Below are positions 729-24,323 of a DNA stretch of 64,000 bases, piece after piece (position 1 is the stretch's first letter; every line of letters starts with the position of its first letter). The translations under genes were made by a program, and so were the position numbers. A model generated the notes under the pieces. It worked only from the letters and a program-made list of their open reading frames with translations, did no database searches and was not told where the DNA came from. This DNA comes from Strobilurus pachycystidiatus (taxonomy: Eukaryota > Basidiomycota > Agaricomycetes > Agaricales > Physalacriaceae), in assembly GCA_019915135.1 (NCBI GenBank), contig JAHLMK010000007.1, positions 434,001-498,000 on the forward strand. The letters run 5' to 3'.

Positions 729-2696
729 TCAAGTTCTTCCCCTTCGCACCGGCGTCCTCAGATATCGTCTCAAAGCCATCAACGCTTTCCCCATCTCGTT
801 CCGGCCCCTCCTCGTCCGCCCGCATCCCCAGAACTCATCTGTTGAGACCTAAATTGATATTTAGGCTCACCCTCAAAGTTAAGACACAGGCGATTAGATG
901 TACACACCTCGACAAGAACCGCATCCCATGTCTCCAGGAGCCTCTGCTGCAACCGCGGGTGCTGTACGAACTTTAGGGAGAGCACTTCCCTCATCTATCA
1001 TCGACATGAGTCCCATATCCAAGAGGGAGTTCGAGTTTATAAGACGTACCTTCCGAACTTTGACTGCCTCCCAATCAGGCCTCACATACCGCTCGTAGCT
1101 CTCCGCGACTCGCACGGCCTCCTCAGGCGTGGCGCAGGCGCGGATGTATCGTGCGACGCGGGCGGAAGAGTATGAGACTGATTCCGCGATGAACTACCAA
1201 CACACAATCAGCCCCGAGTTCAAGAATTGAAAGCGAGGAACACCGGCGAACCTTCGTAGCCTGGAACAAATGCTCCGCAGTAGGATACCGCATCCCTCTG
1301 AACATCATAGCATACTCAGCGTCGTTCGCGAACTCGTAGGACGGGGTTGGCGTCGAGTCCGAGGGTAAGAATATCGCAATGTATCGGTCCTTCGACGGAG
1401 TCTTCAGATTTTTCATGGATGGCTCTGAATACGATAGTGTCAGGAGGGCGTTGGAATTGGATTTTGGCAATGTGATACTGACCTGGATGACGAAGCTCCT
1501 GCCTGATCTTCACGAGGAGGAGTCCCATCTTGTTCTTCCCATGTCCGGCGGCGTTGGTGCCCCAGAAAATGTCTCCTTCCTAGTCCACAGTCAGCGCTGC
1601 CTTCACATACCAAACGAGAAGGAAAGACTCACATTAACGATATCCTCATCCCCCGTATCGAACAGTCTCCTTCTCAACTCCTCATTCTGCTCGAATTTGT
1701 GCTGAAGGACAGCCTTCATCTACAAAGACACCAGCAATCAGGACTAACTTTGAAATAAAAGAGAGGAAAAGAAGAACGTACCACCACCTCCGCCTGGAAT
1801 GCCTTATCCATACTCCCCTCATACGCCTTGGCCAACGCCCACGCCTTTCCAGCCGACTCGGCCGTACGTATTTTGGACATGATACGCGGGGAGGAGGTGA
1901 ACTAGAATAAGAAAATAGCAGATTCGTATTAGCACACACGTCCAGACAGAGCATGATGCACACTACGAACCTTCAACGCCTCAAAGAGATGCAAGGAGGT
2001 CGGATAGGTTCTATGGTCGTACCGGATGGACGAGGGGAATGAGTTGGAGAGCCAGTGTCGGCTGTTAGAGTCGGAGAAATGGACGGCATTGGGGTTAACG
2101 AAGGGAATAAATGCCTGAGAGTTATTAGACGAGGGAGCCTTGGTGAAAGCGGCATTGTTCGATTTCGAACCAGAATTGGACGGGGCTTCAGAAAGAGCCT
2201 TGTTCGAAGCGGAATGGGAAGGCGCCTGTTCTGAAGCAGCCTTGGCATTGGCACCGTTGGACGAAGGAGTTTTGGCGCCGTGGGATGATGGAGTGTTGGA
2301 CGGGGCGATATTGGAAGGAGCTTTCGAAGGGCTATGAGACTTGTGCGAAGCGGCATGGGAAGGAGCCTCAGAGGGGGTATGCGAAGCAGCCTTGGTGCTG
2401 GAATGAGTCTGGTTCGAAGGCGTGCGAGAAACAGCCTTGCGCGAAGCGGTAGGAGAAGCAGCTTTGGTATTGGAAGGTGTCTTGCTGACAAGGGAAGCAG
2501 TGCCCGCAACTTTGTGCGAAGAATTGGAGGTGGTGCTTGCGGCGTGGCGCACTTCGGCGTGGCGCAGAAGCGGGACAGAGTGGTGTGACCCACGAGCAGA
2601 AGCTGGGCGGCTCGTCGACTCGTACTGGACCGCCGTGAACCTCACACGATGATGGCCATCGGATTGGGGGGGAGCAAAGACGAATGGGTCGGACAT
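729..2696 (-). CDS. tandem (double) NADAR-domain protein
   Basis: Eight exons (2696-1971, 1901-1782, 1719-1633, 1579-1483, 1424-1252, 1193-1050, 994-908, 848-729) sum to 517 codons plus stop. Residues about 25-190 are a Ser/Ala/Thr-rich low-complexity tail. Two consecutive NADAR (YbiA/DUF1768) domains follow, at about 196-342 and 357-505. Both end in the typical FWGxx...GxN(K/E)MG signature and share intron positions. Domain 1 keeps LSN but has YPTSLHLFEA in place of YPTSEHLFQ. Domain 2 keeps YPTAEHLFQ but has YEFAND in place of the usual LSNF-like motif. NADAR proteins hydrolyse N-glycosidic bonds of ADP-ribose or riboflavin-pathway compounds. The start at 2696 is preferred over an in-frame ATG at 2828 because a TATA box lies at 2846-2853, too close to 2828. 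Confidence 0.88.
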
Positions 2697-3199: not shown

Positions 3200-4184
3200 T
3201 CATAATGCCAGCGGCGTGCGAAATAGACCCTTCAGAGTATTGGCTAGACTGCGCTGCTTCCTCAGTGCCAGCATCTGGGGGTCGCCATAAACAATAAGAT
3301 ATGCGGGGAGGATAGCGTCTTCGGTGTAGACGACTGTTTCCTCGTAGTTGAGCTCGCTACCTGGCAAGCCGTGCAACTGAAGCCACGTTGAGATTCAGCC
3401 GGGAAACAAGGATGTCACACACTGAGTCGTAATGATCATTGTTCAAGTGCCTATGCCGGTGGTGGTGCACGTTTCGTTGTCTGCCGACAACGACGCGATT
3501 GAGGATGGTGAAGCGGTATTCGGATCCGCGAGACGCGTCGGTGAAGTAGTCGTCTGCCTCTGAGAAGCTAGATTAGGCATGATTGGAGAACGATGACCAT
3601 GGAACACACTAGATGAACACGCCGTCGAGTATATGCCCGGCCCGAATCTCTGAAATTTGTTCTTCGTGCCGGCCATGGCGAGGCTGTAGGAGCTGGCAAT
3701 GATTCGGCACATGGAGCACTCGGGATGGGTGCACAAGACGATGCTGTCCTTGCTCTCGCCGAGAAGACATTTTCGGGTTGTTCCGTGGAAGAGCAGGCGT
3801 TCGACCGTGTTGGTTTCTAGACCTCGTTTGAGCGCAATCTGGTATCTGTTTGGCGTCAGCGCTGCTGGATGGCACGAAGCAAATGGGTGACCTGTATGCC
3901 GCGTATCTGCCTATGCTCTGCGCAGGCGACAATATCCGGAATATTGACACGACTTTGGGAACTGCCTTGTTCGGGTGTAGCCAACCTTGGGCAAAGACAC
4001 GTTCGACTGCGACGATGGTTAGCCCAAAGCCAAGGCTGACGGTTCAGCACGCACCTTGCCTGTAGTCGTCCTCCAGCTTTGTGATCCGAAAAAGCGACCG
4101 ACCACGCTTGTACATCTCCATGCATAGCAAGGCATCCGTCCGCGCCAAATCAGTCAATATCGATGATGGTGGGCTCTGCACCAT
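3200..4184 (-). CDS. PARP-like ADP-ribosyltransferase
   Basis: Five exons (4184-4055, 4006-3892, 3845-3610, 3559-3423, 3376-3200) give 264 residues. This is a stand-alone PARP catalytic fold that would transfer ADP-ribose from NAD+. The triad is present: His102 in LLFHGT, Tyr154 in RFGPGIYS, and Glu219 in LNYEETVVY. The SSKADDYF segment after the tyrosine is typical. A Cys cluster C120-x4-C125-x2-C128 lies inside the domain, as in many basidiomycete PARP-like proteins. No zinc-finger, WGR or BRCT partner domain is encoded in the same frame. It lies head-to-head with the single-NADAR gene (442 bases between start codons) and tail-to-head with the tandem-NADAR gene. The start is the first ATG after an in-frame stop; an upstream exon is possible. 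Confidence 0.85.
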
Positions 4185-4626
4185 CGCTCAGCAAATAGCG
4201 CAGTAAATGGGGTGTTCTCGTTCTGTCCATACCGTTGTAAGCACGCATATTGAATGCCAAATAATGCACGGCGTTTTGGGAATGAAACAGGGATCAAGCG
4301 AGCGCGGTACTGTAGCATCGTGGCGAAATTTGACGACGAGGGACGGAGGCAAGGGGCGGATGCCGGCCCGCACTGACCGATCCCAACCCTCTCTGTCATT
4401 CGTTGGAATTGTTCTGATTCAGTTCCGCCTATCTCAACTATGCTGCTGCTGGGATCTTCCCAGGACGCACCACATCTTGCGAATAAACAGCTGATAATTA
4501 TCTTCTGCTGCCAACACTGCACCTCGTGCTTTCAAACGGGCACTTATAGCGCGGCGGGCACGTTGCCGCATCTACTCTTCACTCTTTGACTTCAACACCC
4601 AACTTCACTTCACCTCATAACCCGTA
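4185..4626. promoter_or_regulatory. shared divergent promoter, PARP-like / NADAR
   Basis: A 442-base head-to-head spacer between the PARP-like gene (-) and the NADAR gene (+). No convincing coding segment is seen. A TATA-like ACTTATAGCG lies near 4542, about 80 bases before the NADAR ATG. The sharing implies possible co-regulation. Confidence 0.45.
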
Positions 4627-5639
4627 ATGCCTCAGAACAACAACAGCCGCTACCGATCCTCTTTCGTCGGTCCAAATACGCCATATTGCCCTCCTTCTTC
4701 CCCCCGAAGTCCTCGTCCGCAGAACTACCTTGTGACCATCCAGCCGCTTGACGAGAGGAGTCACCCAACGCCGCATAGACTTAGCATTCCTATATCTACA
4801 TACACACATGCACAGACCGGGGCGCTCGTCGCAAGGCCTGTGAGCTACAGCTATCCTGGCCTCAGCCCTCGTCCGAGTCCTGGCAGGTTGACATCATCAC
4901 CGGCCCAATCCAGCCCAAGGACACCGGCCCCGGAGCCTCCAATTTTGTTCTACGACAAGAACGCGCCTCACTACGAGTTCACAAACTTCTCCGCGCATAC
5001 TGTCAAGTACAAGGGCGAGGTATACCCGACGAGCGAACATCTCTTTCAGTCCTTCAAGGTATGCACCATCTCTTTTCGTGTGTTTTGGCTCTAGGTCTTG
5101 CTCTGCCTTCGTTTCATTTTCCAAGAGTGATCGCTAATGTTGATTCTGGTTACAGTTCGAACACCGTCCCCGCCTCGCAGCTCACATCCGTACATGCTCG
5201 CGCGCACCGCGTGTGGCGTTCTCGGAAGCACAACGCTTTGAGCCGGAGAAAAGGAAGGATTGGAGGAGTGTTAGTATTGACAAGGTACGTTTCTCATTCC
5301 TCATCTTTCCTCCGGATCTCTGTTTCATCTCATTCCCAATCAGATGGAAGAAACCGTCTACCTCAAGTTCACCCAACACGCGGATCTGAAAGACGAATTG
5401 CTCGGCACAGGAGGGGCTGAGCTGATTGAGGTGTGTCGTCCGTCCTTTCTCCTCGTGTTCGACTATCCATCCATCCATCCATCCATTCTCCTCGTGTCCA
5501 GATCTAACATGTTTCACCTTAGGATTCCCCCGTCGACAGCTTTTGGGGGGTAGGATCGGACGGCAAGGGCCGTAACGAGTTGGGCAAGGCGTTGATGAGG
5601 GTGAGGGAGCGTATTCGGACGGAACAGACTGGTTTCTGA
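4627..5639 (+). CDS. NADAR-domain protein
   Basis: Four exons (4627-5058, 5156-5284, 5344-5430, 5523-5639) give 254 residues. Residues 1-100 are Pro/Ser-rich. A full NADAR domain runs from about 105 to 245. Its signature motifs are intact: ILFYDK, TNFSAH, YPTSEHLFQSFK with the conserved Glu, and FWGVG...GKGRNELGKALM. Intron positions match those inside both domains of the tandem gene at 729-2696, so the three domains share ancestry. The expected activity is N-glycosidase hydrolysis of ADP-ribose or ribose conjugates. It is divergently paired with the PARP-like gene. Confidence 0.92.
5463..5486. repeat. (CCAT)n microsatellite in an intron
   Basis: Five to six tandem CCAT units lie inside the third intron of the NADAR gene, away from its splice sites. 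Confidence 0.8.
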
Positions 5640-5814: not shown

Positions 5815-6717
5815 ATGGCTACCACTAACCCTGCCACCGTCAACCCCTCACCCGCATCTGGTCTTAACCCGCAGCTGTGTACCGTACGTCTTCTTCCCTC
5901 CCTCTCTTTCCTCCGGTATTGATGCTGACTATCATCGTAGTTCTGCCAACGCAAGCCCCGCCACGGAACTTTTGAATATTGCGGCAAGACATGCGCCAAA
6001 CAAGCTAGCGCGATGTGTTCCGTGCGTCCTTCCTTCTCTCCCTCCAATCTTACTAACATCAATGTTCCGTAGAATTGCCACCAGAAACCCAAGTTCGCTG
6101 GGCATGATTTCTGTAGCAAGAAATGCGGTGCTGCTTCAGCAGCTACCACACAAGCTATCCCGAAATCAAATCCCGTCCCCGTCACAGCCAAAGCTGCTCC
6201 TGCCGCCCCCGGAGTCGACCTTACGCAGCTCGCTCGTGCGTTTCGTCACGCTCCCTCCTCCTCTTAAGCTCACGTCCCGTCCAGAGAGCCTCCTACAACA
6301 GCTCCAGACCGCCCAAGGTCAAGGTGGCCCCGCTGGCGCGCCAGCGAACATGGCGCAGATCCTCAGCGCGCTTGTCGCCGGCGTCAACGCCAATACCCCA
6401 CAGAACGGTACCAGTCAGGCCTTCGCGCGCCAAGGTGCCAGTGCTCAAACCGTCATTCCCAGCACCCAAGCCGCTCCAGTCGCTGTTGGACAAGTTGATG
6501 CACAAGGGTACCCACTAGGACTCGACTTTGGGAATACGTGAGTATTTATGTCGATGGAGCGCGTCCAAGGGCTGTCACTAACTCAACCCACAGCCAACAC
6601 GGAAGCTACAACCCGACGTACGTGTGCATCATGTGCGGCGTCAAACCTCAGCTGGATCAGTATTATTTCTGTGGGGACGAGTGTCGGGATCGTGCGTGTT
6701 CGAAGGATGTGTATTGA
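5815..6717 (+). CDS. triple CxxC-x11-CxxxC zinc-knuckle protein
   Basis: Five exons (5815-5883, 5941-6021, 6073-6235, 6285-6537, 6594-6717) give 229 residues. Three copies of C-x2-C-x11-C-x3-C occur: two adjacent near residues 22-70 and one near 198-218. Each has a KP after the second Cys and an aromatic residue before the third (for example NCHQKPKF...DFCSKKC). They are separated by an Ala/Gln/Pro-rich linker. From memory, similar knuckles are found fused to PARP catalytic domains in basidiomycete proteins. Here they form a separate gene 176 bases downstream of the NADAR gene. Zinc and nucleic-acid or protein binding is likely; no enzymatic motif is seen. Confidence 0.8.
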
Positions 6718-7530: not shown

Positions 7531-8710
7531 CTTTCAGCGCACCGATATTGGAACGGGTATTCCGGATGACTCACAAGGAACGAAGCACATGCATCTCCTG
7601 TGCTTCGGTAGCATGAGAGAGAACGGTACTAGAAATCACCATCTGATGTGGTTTTCATCAAACTATAAGATGGCAACAATTGTGACCAGGTGGGCCCGTC
7701 AACACATCGCAGGTACTTGGGTAGAAGATGATGAAAAGGTAGCCGAGCATCATCGGTTTGAATCGAGAACCACGGATGTTTGATGAAAGCGTTATCTCAA
7801 GAACATTCAAACTGTCCATATCATGCGCGCATCTGATGCTGAACCACTATCTTGGACCTGGAAGGAACAATCGTCGAGGCGAGGACTCAGAGAGAGCTGG
7901 TAAAAGCGCCTAGAGTGGTCACAAGGAGAAGTACTCAGAAGCTGATTACTGTCCTGTCCAGTCAGACTTGAACCACACTATGAGCCGTTGACACAGGGAG
8001 AGCTCTGATAGGGCAGAAGACCCGGGCCTATCGTTTAGTTTGTTGTAACGCCAGACTAGCCCAGAAATCGAGTTGACGAAGGATCACAGAGGCGCCAAGA
8101 CAGGAAGGGGTAGTTGATGGGCAAGGTAGACTAAGGCATACTAGAAGATACTGGCCTCGTGAAGATCAGCGCGTTTTGGAAATGATAGGAAGCAAGGTTG
8201 CGCCAGTGTACGCGGCCAGATTATACGCCACTGCGCCAGCGCATCAAAGTCTGGGGTACAGCCCGGTTAATTCTCTGGTTGCAAAGAGTCCCGCCGTAGT
8301 ACGCTCGAGGGGGAGTGAAAATTCTGAACCGCGGTTTTGGTTGGCAGTGGCGTGAAGCAAGGGACATGACGTCACATGTCACAACCCTCTTTGGCAGAAA
8401 CATCGACGACCATTGCAGGATTTTTGTCGTTTCCCTCTGATAATCACTGAAAACGCCTTCAAGATTAACAAGGGATCTACTGAAAAGCGCATCAGATTTT
8501 TGGCGCCTAAAACGCGTACCTATGCGATTCAAGGTAGTCTGCTCGTCTGGCACAAGAAAAAAAGAAACTTACGTCCTGACAGTCCTTCCTGCTGGCTTCT
8601 TCGAGTGGAGTGGTTTTTTTCGATCTCAGACAGAGCTACGAAACAAAGTAGGACGTTCACTTTCGCTGTCTCGCTGTGCAACGTTTGACGACGGTGGTGT
8701 TTCAGGCGTT
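7531..8710. other. intergenic, no gene seen
   Basis: A 1.2-kb spacer between divergent transcription units. It contains TACGCCAC and TGCGCCAG motifs near 8200-8240, but no ORF with recognisable similarity or splice-consistent coding. Confidence 0.5.
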
Positions 8711-10360
8711 ATGAGCCACTCGACACCGACGTGCCCTACGTGCACTCTTCTCTCCCTGCAGCCGGACGACCCGCAGAGAGCTCGCACTCCCCGCGTAGAG
8801 GAACTCTTACGTCGGAACCAGCCTCCCCTTGACGTGGAGCTCTTTGATTTCAGGCTTGTCGTCGAAGAGTCCCCGGCCATACTCAAAGGCCTCGAGGAGA
8901 AGATTCTTCGCGCTCAGGAGACGCTGGAATACCTCACCCGTGCCCGCAAAAATGCAGTGCGCAGCCTTTCCGACGCCAAAGCACTTCTACATCCCATTCG
9001 TTCTGTACCGCCAGAAATTCTTGGCCAAATTTTCCAGCTTTGTGTCCCGTCATGGGAAAGGGACACCGAGAAATGGACGCCTGCCATCGATGCTGAGGAC
9101 TCCCTATATCCCTTCACGGCCCCGTGGTCTTTGTCGCAAGTCTGCCGGCGGTGGAGAGACCAGGTTCTCTCTTCCCCTTCGCTGTGGTCATTTCTCGTGC
9201 TGAAACTCGACGAGTACGACGGACAAATGACTCCATCACAATGCGTCTTCAAAGCTTTTCTTTTCCTAGCGCGCTCTAGCAATCACTCGTTATCGGTACA
9301 CCTCAGTACAAATAGCGACGGCCTCACTGAGCACCCTCTTCTTCCCCTCCTGGAGGGTAGTGCGGAACGCTGGGAGCGTCTACGAATCAGGCTGCCTATT
9401 TCATCCATCCGCGCCCTCTCCGAAATCCCATATCCCCGACTATCCGAGCTACAGCTGTTTCCCTTGCCGCCATCACCGGAACCGATGGTGGCTGATGCCT
9501 TCTGCTCGGCCCCCCTGCTTCGAACCTTTGCTATAAGGGGGACTGCAGCGCTGCAATTCCACATCCTCCCCTTCTCCCAGTTTACCAAGTTTACCATGAA
9601 CAGTGTCTTCAAAAAAGGGGCCCAATCCAATGTCGATGCTCTGCGCAAAATGATAAATCTCCGCACGCTTCATTTGAGCATAACATCACAGCAGACAATC
9701 CCGGACACTCCTCTGTCTTTGGCACACTTATCTGAACTCTACTTCGAGGAATGCAGGGATATCGACACTCTATCTCTACGGGAGGCTTCTACTGCTTTTG
9801 ATGTCCCGGCATTAGCCTATTTCGTTTGCCGCTTTTACTCGGCCAAAGGCAGGATTGCGCACTTCCCCGCCTTTCCCTGTTCGCTTCACCTCTTGAGCAA
9901 ACTCGGTGTGCGGTGCAATATGGATCGACATCCCGACAACACCACCAACTTTCTTGAGTTCCTTTCTCATACGCCTAGCGTTGAGGAGCTCATCGTATTC
10001 GAAGACATGCTGACTTTGCGATTTGTGGAGGGTCTCAGATTCACACACCCGAGTTCCTCGAGATTACCGCGTCTACGCATTCTCGATGTCGGCCGATGCG
10101 TTTCCGCCAAAGATCTGTCACCCAATGCTTTTGGGGATATGTTGGAGACGCGCTGCACGATGGTGCCAAGGAGTGTGGCACCGAGCGAATTGGGTGACCC
10201 TCGCGGTGCACAAGCGGGTCCCAGCGTTTCTCTCAACGACGGGGAACTGCCGCGGGTGCATCTGGAGAAATTATGTGCACCACGTTGGATGTATTTTCGT
10301 GGAGACGAACGTTGGCGGGATATTTGTAGTGCGCTCCATGTAGAATGTGGTCCTATATAG
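8711..10360 (+). CDS. F-box domain protein, copy 1
   Basis: Intronless, 549 residues. An N-terminal CPTC motif comes first, then a coiled-coil-like helix (about 55-85), then an F-box-like segment (HPIRSVPPEILGQIF, continuing to LSQVCRRWRDQVLSSPSLW). The remainder is a leucine-rich-repeat-like region. Such proteins are SCF ubiquitin-ligase substrate adaptors and are hugely expanded in Agaricomycetes. It is a full-length paralogue of the gene at 15463-17109. The ATG at 8711 matches that paralogue's start; the longer open frame upstream (from 8522) has no similarity and is left out. Confidence 0.88.
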   Translation: MSHSTPTCPTCTLLSLQPDDPQRARTPRVEELLRRNQPPLDVELFDFRLVVEESPAILKGLEEKILRAQETLEYLTRARKNAVRSLSDAKALLHPIRSVPPEILGQIFQLCVPSWERDTEKWTPAIDAEDSLYPFTAPWSLSQVCRRWRDQVLSSPSLWSFLVLKLDEYDGQMTPSQCVFKAFLFLARSSNHSLSVHLSTNSDGLTEHPLLPLLEGSAERWERLRIRLPISSIRALSEIPYPRLSELQLFPLPPSPEPMVADAFCSAPLLRTFAIRGTAALQFHILPFSQFTKFTMNSVFKKGAQSNVDALRKMINLRTLHLSITSQQTIPDTPLSLAHLSELYFEECRDIDTLSLREASTAFDVPALAYFVCRFYSAKGRIAHFPAFPCSLHLLSKLGVRCNMDRHPDNTTNFLEFLSHTPSVEELIVFEDMLTLRFVEGLRFTHPSSSRLPRLRILDVGRCVSAKDLSPNAFGDMLETRCTMVPRSVAPSELGDPRGAQAGPSVSLNDGELPRVHLEKLCAPRWMYFRGDERWRDICSALHVECGPI

Positions 10361-23507: not shown

Positions 23508-23890
23508 CGTGCAGGGGAGTTGAACAGGAGGAAAGAGATGTCATGAGAAGGGTCATTGGGTTTGCCTCGTTGCTTCAAGGTGTTTCGGTGCGGAGTCAAG
23601 TTCCGGTGATGTGATTGCGATGGTACGATGAAAAGAAACACCGAGTTCATGCGGGACGAGCCCACCTGCCCGCTATGCAGTGATCGTAGGTGATAGCGGC
23701 GACGCAATACAAGACGCAAGATGAGTCTGAGCGAGGAAGGAATGACTTCGATGCACCGAGCCTAACGACTTGCACGACGTGGATCAACAGGCGGCGATCA
23801 TACAGTCTTTCAGTCGAGATTGGGAACGGGCTGAAGAAGAAAATGTGATTTTTGGGCGGGCGCGATGGCCCACGCCACCTACGACCATAT
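23508..23890. other. spacer upstream of copy A
   Basis: Contains CTAACGACTTGCACGACG near 23763, which recurs near 25734 in the duplicated unit. No gene is seen. Confidence 0.5.
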
Positions 23891-23973
23891 GGGTCAATGG
23901 CGTAGTCGGTTATCGCATCTGTCTTACACGTCCGGAGCACAGAAGGTCCTCAGTTCGAGCCTGGGTTGACTCA
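23891..23973 (+). tRNA. tRNA-Val(UAC) with a 9-nt intron
   Basis: A complete cloverleaf can be drawn. The acceptor arms are GGGTCAA / TTGACTC (one G-U pair) plus discriminator A. The D arm is GCGTAGTCGGTTATCGC. The anticodon stem is TCTGT/ACAGA around CTTACA...C with anticodon TAC, and the T arm is CTCAG-TTCGAGC-CTGGG. Nine bases (CGTCCGGAG) lie one position 3' of the anticodon, the standard site for nuclear tRNA introns. Confidence 0.9.
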
Positions 23974-24323
23974 TTCATTGTGTTTTGCTTTTCTTTAGAA
24001 GCCCTGGGTCCTGAGCTTCGATTTGTGTAATTTAGATTTGAAGCTCTCAGCTGAGTCAGCTCTGCGCCGTGTGGCATCGGTTCATTGTGCATGCCCACAT
24101 CACAAAACTCAAGGCTCTTACAAACTGCAACGAGTCTGCAACATTGCGCGATAGAAAGTGTGTTCGTAAGAGTCTTTGGCGTAAGATCAGGGCCGATGCT
24201 TGGTGTTGGACCTGATCATAATGATACTATTGCGAGGCAGCTTGAAGTTGTAGAAGTTATTTGATGGACGCCGCAAAAGGAGAAGGCGCGATTGGGAAAA
24301 TAATTAGGTGGAAATCTGACAAC

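Follow-up and report, generated by a model that had tools for sequence, protein, structure and literature searches.

A PARP–NADAR gene pair of mushroom-forming fungi as a probable conserved writer and eraser of ADP-ribose

Does a PARP-like transferase gene that stands head to head with a gene for a NADAR hydrolase in the basidiomycete Strobilurus pachycystidiatus belong to a eukaryotic system that writes and erases ADP-ribose? The question is raised by a stretch of 64,000 nucleotides (C7:434001-498000, referred to as the window) of the 51.8-Mb genome of this fungus, which comprises 61 contigs. A sequence-only reading of the window had proposed such a module, similar to the bacterial pairs of an ADP-ribosyltransferase (ART) and a NADAR protein. 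At the gene level the proposal holds, as judged by linkage, catalytic residues and a zinc ribbon common to both partners, and we regard the two genes as probably forming a conserved ADP-ribose writer/eraser pair of mushroom-forming fungi. Four adjacent genes make up the locus: a double NADAR and the PARP on the reverse strand, followed by the NADAR and a zinc-ribbon gene on the forward strand. The start codons of the PARP and the NADAR are separated by 442 bp, exactly the divergent spacing read earlier.

The spliced PARP model is uninterrupted over 264 amino acids (aa) and has four GT-AG introns of 46–50 bp. Its motifs FHGT (at 101), GIYST (at 152) and YEETV (at 217) supply His102, Tyr154 and Glu219, and the Pfam profile PF00644 matches it with 37.3 bits (cut-off 26.7) as the sole Pfam match at E ≤ 1; the description of a stand-alone PARP with an intact triad is thus borne out by the spliced model and the profile. 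The H-Y-E triad is kept in nearly all PARP homologues of at least 200 aa (H in 106, Y in 105 and E in 105 of 107). A structural model of the homologue P0012 (pLDDT 91) matches PARP structures, the closest solved ones being tankyrases, and the best match by sequence profile and fold is likewise the catalytic domain of tankyrase (PARP5), which shares the triad. Unlike tankyrases, the fungal PARP has neither ankyrin repeats nor SAM, for which reason the name was dropped, and it carries four conserved cysteines (C108, C120, C125 and C128) between the HG and GIY strands and a characteristic cluster-free C-terminal tail. This tail, LFRTPLAL in the window protein (window 3200-3240, reverse strand), has an LFKTPLAS-like counterpart in 76 of 113 homologues and could be a docking motif. 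At C6:1045999-1046187 lies a divergent, PARP-like paralogue whose HG motif is followed by a cysteine cluster of this type.

When the PARP alignment (A1) was compared with prokaryotic and viral contigs, 6 and 25 pattern matches were obtained, respectively, and tblastn confirmed no relative among them. To our knowledge, the substrates of fungal PARPs are largely unknown. In the accessible text of published surveys, including one from 2010 (PMC2964712), fungal PARPs are assigned only to clades 1 and 6, with no tankyrases; the window PARP suggests a fungal group beyond the clades listed there.

The partner gene encodes a protein with the NADAR profile (PF08719, 128.8 bits) and, as judged on close homologues, the NADAR fold; the catalytic residues are conserved in this family, as they are among the PARPs. 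Its residues E137, K144, E216, D221 and W224 correspond to E43, K50, E125, D130 and W133 of the NADAR of Phytophthora nicotianae, so that all ADP-ribose-binding and catalytic residues are present, as the motifs noticed earlier had implied. We found no report of a paired transferase for the P. nicotianae protein (8bau) or for Escherichia coli YbiA (2b3w), whereas the fungal NADAR is linked to a PARP. A block conserved at the N-terminus of some NADARs occurs in 8 of the 27 linked proteins and in 28 of the 120 listed, and so is no signature. A further NADAR at C11:1461760-1462143 has its first catalytic Glu replaced (PTAYH) and no evident last-strand Glu, and is a candidate pseudo-enzyme. The family was reportedly named in a paper of 2012, which may mention fungal contexts. 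As far as the accessible text of the sources goes, hydrolysis of guanine-linked ADP-ribose is reported for bacterial, phage and oomycete NADARs (PMC11543638 and PMC11125620 among others), many NADARs are argued to act on soluble ADP-ribose derivatives (PMC9503650), and the role of eukaryotic NADARs is stated to be unclear (PMC11125620).

Conservation of the PARP–NADAR neighbourhood was assessed by a proxy drawn from the homologue lists, namely the occurrence of both proteins on contigs of identical size, together with locus tags. A listed protein may represent a cluster of several members, for which the size of the longest contig is given. Rows without a species, the PARPs of Marchantia and Paratrimastix (P0111, P0113) and repeat proteins on an already typed contig were left out of the count. 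The resulting sets held 78 species with a PARP, 68 with a NADAR (from the best 120 of 543 NADAR matches) and 34 with both. In 28 of the 34, PARP and NADAR lie on equal-sized contigs, against 1.2 (for 50-Mb genomes) to 1.8 (for 30-Mb genomes) expected, bearing in mind that the species are not independent; by this proxy, the neighbourhood is conserved above chance, which the sequence-only reading had named as a check. If single-domain NADARs alone are considered, the linked fraction rises to 27 of 29 species among the matches listed. No PARP contig equals in size a NADAR contig of another species.

Locus tags of PARP and NADAR are consecutive in Jaapia argillacea, Mycena sp. CBHHK59/15 and Marasmius oreades; in Amanita inopinata they are four apart on a 65-kb contig, and in Paxillus rubicundulus both genes are found on 43 kb. 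Taxonomy look-up placed the linked Jaapia in Jaapiales, Paxillus in Boletales, Grifola in Polyporales and Mucidula in Physalacriaceae (Agaricales); the orders of the remaining linked species, Hydnomerulius included, are those to which we take them to belong. Across 27 linked species and the window, PARP identities and NADAR-core identities correlate (r 0.77; means 52% and 77%), as expected for joint vertical descent.

In S. pachycystidiatus itself, at least five PARP-type genes or fragments and at least four NADAR genes are present, and the two types occur together only in the window (7–8 kb were inspected around each other copy). The chance of any PARP falling within 2 kb of any NADAR in this genome is ~0.0015. 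Judged by the homologue lists, the closest relative for two genes of the locus is Mucidula mucida, whose NADAR (P0122, 87% identity over 59% of the query) and zinc-ribbon protein (P0234, 51% identity) are encoded on the same 75,528-base contig.

The zinc-ribbon protein contains two CxxC..KP..[FY]CxxxC ribbons near its N-terminus and one at its C-terminus; a match to Pfam DUF937 fell below the cut-off and was dismissed. The NADARs of Paxillus (P0203) and Hydnomerulius (P0225), as well as P0176, end in a double ribbon of this type, while P0193 and P0215 have a single N-terminal ribbon and P0230 a partial one. These are 6 of the 120 NADARs listed; for two of them, P0176 and P0230, the gene model may be a read-through. 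On C12 of the S. pachycystidiatus genome such a ribbon and a PARP domain look, from their sequence, like parts of one intron-bearing gene. One ribbon type is therefore joined to a PARP, joined to NADARs and encoded beside both, which is circumstantial evidence that writer and eraser share a target. The coordinates of all these features are collected in Table 1.

Table 1. Features of the PARP–NADAR locus and related copies on C12 (window positions unless a contig is named)
Feature	Position	Strand	Description
Tandem double-NADAR gene	729..2696	-	8 exons, 512 or 515 aa; some catalytic residues missing
Stand-alone tankyrase-like PARP	3200..4184	-	264 aa, 5 exons: 4184-4055, 4006-3892, 3845-3610, 3559-3423, 3376-3200
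Divergent intergenic region, candidate shared promoter	4185..4626	.	442 bp; promoter function putative
Single-domain YbiA-type NADAR	4627..5639	+	254 aa, 4 exons: 4627-5058, 5156-5284, 5344-5430, 5523-5639
Zinc-ribbon protein gene	5815..6717	+	starts 175 bp past the NADAR stop; exon borders set by eye
Zinc-ribbon PARP paralogue	C12:704500-712500, ~3636-5220 within it	+	double ribbon precedes PARP domain
Second PARP fragment	C12:704500-712500, ~2172-2419 within it	-	near the zinc-ribbon PARP, opposite strand

The second NADAR that had been noticed on the other flank is a real gene, yet not a simple second copy. It encodes an N-terminus rich in Ser and Ala and, in tandem, two NADAR domains, one splice choice deciding between 512 and 515 aa. 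Domain A has Leu in place of the first catalytic Glu and no Glu on the last strand; in domain B, Glu and Lys are retained and the Asp before FWG is missing with either splice. From its sequence, the protein may have kept binding of ADP-ribose but not its cleavage, or the gene may be decaying. A match to Ndc80_HEC was below the Pfam cut-off and was dismissed. Among the matches listed, double NADARs share the PARP contig in 3 of 8 species, a much weaker linkage than that of the single-domain proteins, which is why the double NADAR is probably an accessory rather than a core part of the module. The PARP contig carries both a double and a single NADAR in Mycena pura and Crucibulum laeve; the set of PARP, single NADAR and double NADAR may thus not be unique to the window, yet it is not general.

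Two features of the window lie farther from the locus: a 638-aa open frame at 8444-10360 (forward strand), which we take to resemble an Agaricomycete F-box-type protein, and a tRNA gene at 23890-23974 (forward strand), identified by ARAGORN as tRNA-Cys and matching the Rfam tRNA family at 23891-23973.

Among the closest known systems is the bacterial DarT1-NADAR pair (DarTG1), in which an ADP-ribosyltransferase gene also adjoins a NADAR gene, and whose NADAR has in common with the fungal one the Glu/Lys and an acidic residue on the last strand. The conserved adjacency of transferase and NADAR that characterises the DarT1 type is found in fungi as well, adjacency itself being given by consecutive tags in three species. 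However, the fungal writer is a eukaryotic PARP (PF00644, H-Y-E, tankyrase-like) and not of the DarT family, and the fungal NADAR is of YbiA type with Glu216 on its last strand, where the partner of DarT1 has Asp (D171). Membership in the DarT1 system was dropped. The fungal genes also contain introns, are transcribed divergently and show linkage in many fungi. The YarT-YbiA pair of myxobacteria, as described in the accessible text of PMC11125620, likewise joins an H-Y-E transferase to a NADAR of the YbiA subfamily. YarT, however, has a small bacterial Rhs-like toxin fold and occurs in only a handful of species, whereas the PARP of the fungi comprises a complete PARP catalytic domain, has a cysteine cluster and is widespread in Agaricomycetes. 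In the literature searched, which left most subscription journals outside its coverage and was in part accessible only as partial text, we found no description of a fungal PARP–NADAR pair among the papers listed.

How might such a pair work? The PARP would move ADP-ribose from NAD+ onto an acceptor, and the divergent YbiA-type NADAR would hydrolyse an N-glycosidic bond of ADP-ribose, so that the two would jointly set the level of one modification. Their expression could be co-regulated through the 442-bp gap, and the zinc-ribbon partner, as a putative adaptor, would probably bring writer and eraser to the same target. Linkage and the common ribbon suggest that PARP and NADAR belong to one pathway, most simply with the NADAR removing what the PARP adds. 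Guanine, or some other N-linked base of RNA or DNA, would be the most likely acceptor, since the guanine linkage is the sole macromolecular one of ADP-ribose for which we found cleavage by NADARs reported. A protein or a small molecule is a possible acceptor, the former since tankyrases act on proteins. Put together, an endogenous and reversible ADP-ribosylation of guanine or another base in RNA or DNA, written by a cysteine-cluster PARP, erased by the NADAR and targeted in both steps by a common zinc ribbon, is a reading that we advance tentatively.

Several observations weigh against a writer/eraser pair, or against a base as its acceptor. Linkage was deduced from equal contig sizes and tags rather than from the DNA of other species, and orientation is that of the window only; outside the four tag-supported species, the tags are non-adjacent or without clear position, and a shared contig is all that is seen. 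In six of the 34 species no link was seen: Ephemerocybe angulata, Hypsizygus marmoreus, Mycena capillaripes, M. epipterygia, M. filopes and M. galericulata. The first two are also the misses among species with single-domain NADARs; the Hypsizygus tags (Hypma_004173 and Hypma_014877) are far apart. The Ephemerocybe proteins may derive from different assemblies, since their tag prefixes differ (DFP72DRAFT and D9611), and the four Mycena species have only a double NADAR among the matches listed. The zinc-ribbon gene has only three homologues at E ≤ 0.001. Because the closest solved PARPs are tankyrases and TNKS2 was inactive on the single-stranded RNA tested (accessible text of PMC13036486), a protein acceptor is quite possible. 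Nor need the NADAR act on the product of the PARP, given the riboflavin glycosides and soluble derivatives among known or proposed NADAR substrates.

This last point leads to an alternative in which the two genes are merely co-regulated parts of NAD or nucleotide metabolism: the NADAR would be a damage-control N-glycosidase for riboflavin intermediates or soluble ADP-ribose derivatives, and protein marks set by the PARP would be removed by other hydrolases. YbiA-type NADARs do cleave riboflavin-pathway N-glycosides (PMC11543638), soluble derivatives have been proposed as NADAR substrates (PMC9503650, accessible text), the PARP is tankyrase-like, and the genome offers other ADP-ribose hydrolases, an ADP_ribosyl_GH on C13 and macrodomains on C1 and C16. 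PARG (PF05028) had no match in the S. pachycystidiatus genome; since control genomes likewise gave none, its absence is not shown by this result. Such a metabolic role leaves unexplained why this PARP stays beside a NADAR in several orders and why one zinc-ribbon type occurs in proteins of both families, and the NADARs on C10 and C11 do without a PARP in the 8 kb inspected; we consider it unlikely. Simple retention of gene order, with unrelated genes left adjacent by chance, is very improbable in view of the 28 linked species of 34 against 1.2–1.8 expected (non-independent as the species are), of links that span Agaricales, Boletales, Polyporales and Jaapiales (four representatives were looked up), and of double NADARs from the same search, our comparison for linkage, being linked in only 3 of 8 species. 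In favour of such retention, gene order is to some extent conserved within Agaricomycetes, and no ordinary neighbour was usable as a control, the zinc-ribbon gene having too few homologues.

The locus could instead be a conflict module, with the PARP as a toxin-like effector (antiviral, anti-transposon or in heterokaryon incompatibility) and the NADARs as immunity proteins, as in DarT1-NADAR or YarT-YbiA. The ART-NADAR pairs of bacteria are toxin-antitoxin systems (PMC11543638 and PMC11125620, accessible text), the extra, partly degenerate double NADAR at the locus would suit such a role, and mean identity is lower for the PARP (52%) than for the NADAR (77%). Yet a wide Agaricomycete distribution and a strongly conserved NADAR core fit a stable cellular function better; a core 77% identical on average looks like that of a maintained function rather than of an arms race. 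No clear pointer to defence or heterokaryon conflict appeared among our results, which did not include a search of mobile-element or incompatibility-gene context or a view of strain polymorphism. We rate a conflict role as distinctly unlikely.

A conserved PARP–NADAR pair provides matched writer and eraser candidates and so makes the question of function testable. If the base-modifying reading is true, the pair would be the counterpart of DarT1-NADAR in eukaryotes, though not a toxin system, and would probably have been present since the ancestor of the four orders in which linkage was seen. With a base as acceptor, reversible ADP-ribosylation of nucleic acids would reach beyond the conflict systems of bacteria and include a stable function in eukaryotes.
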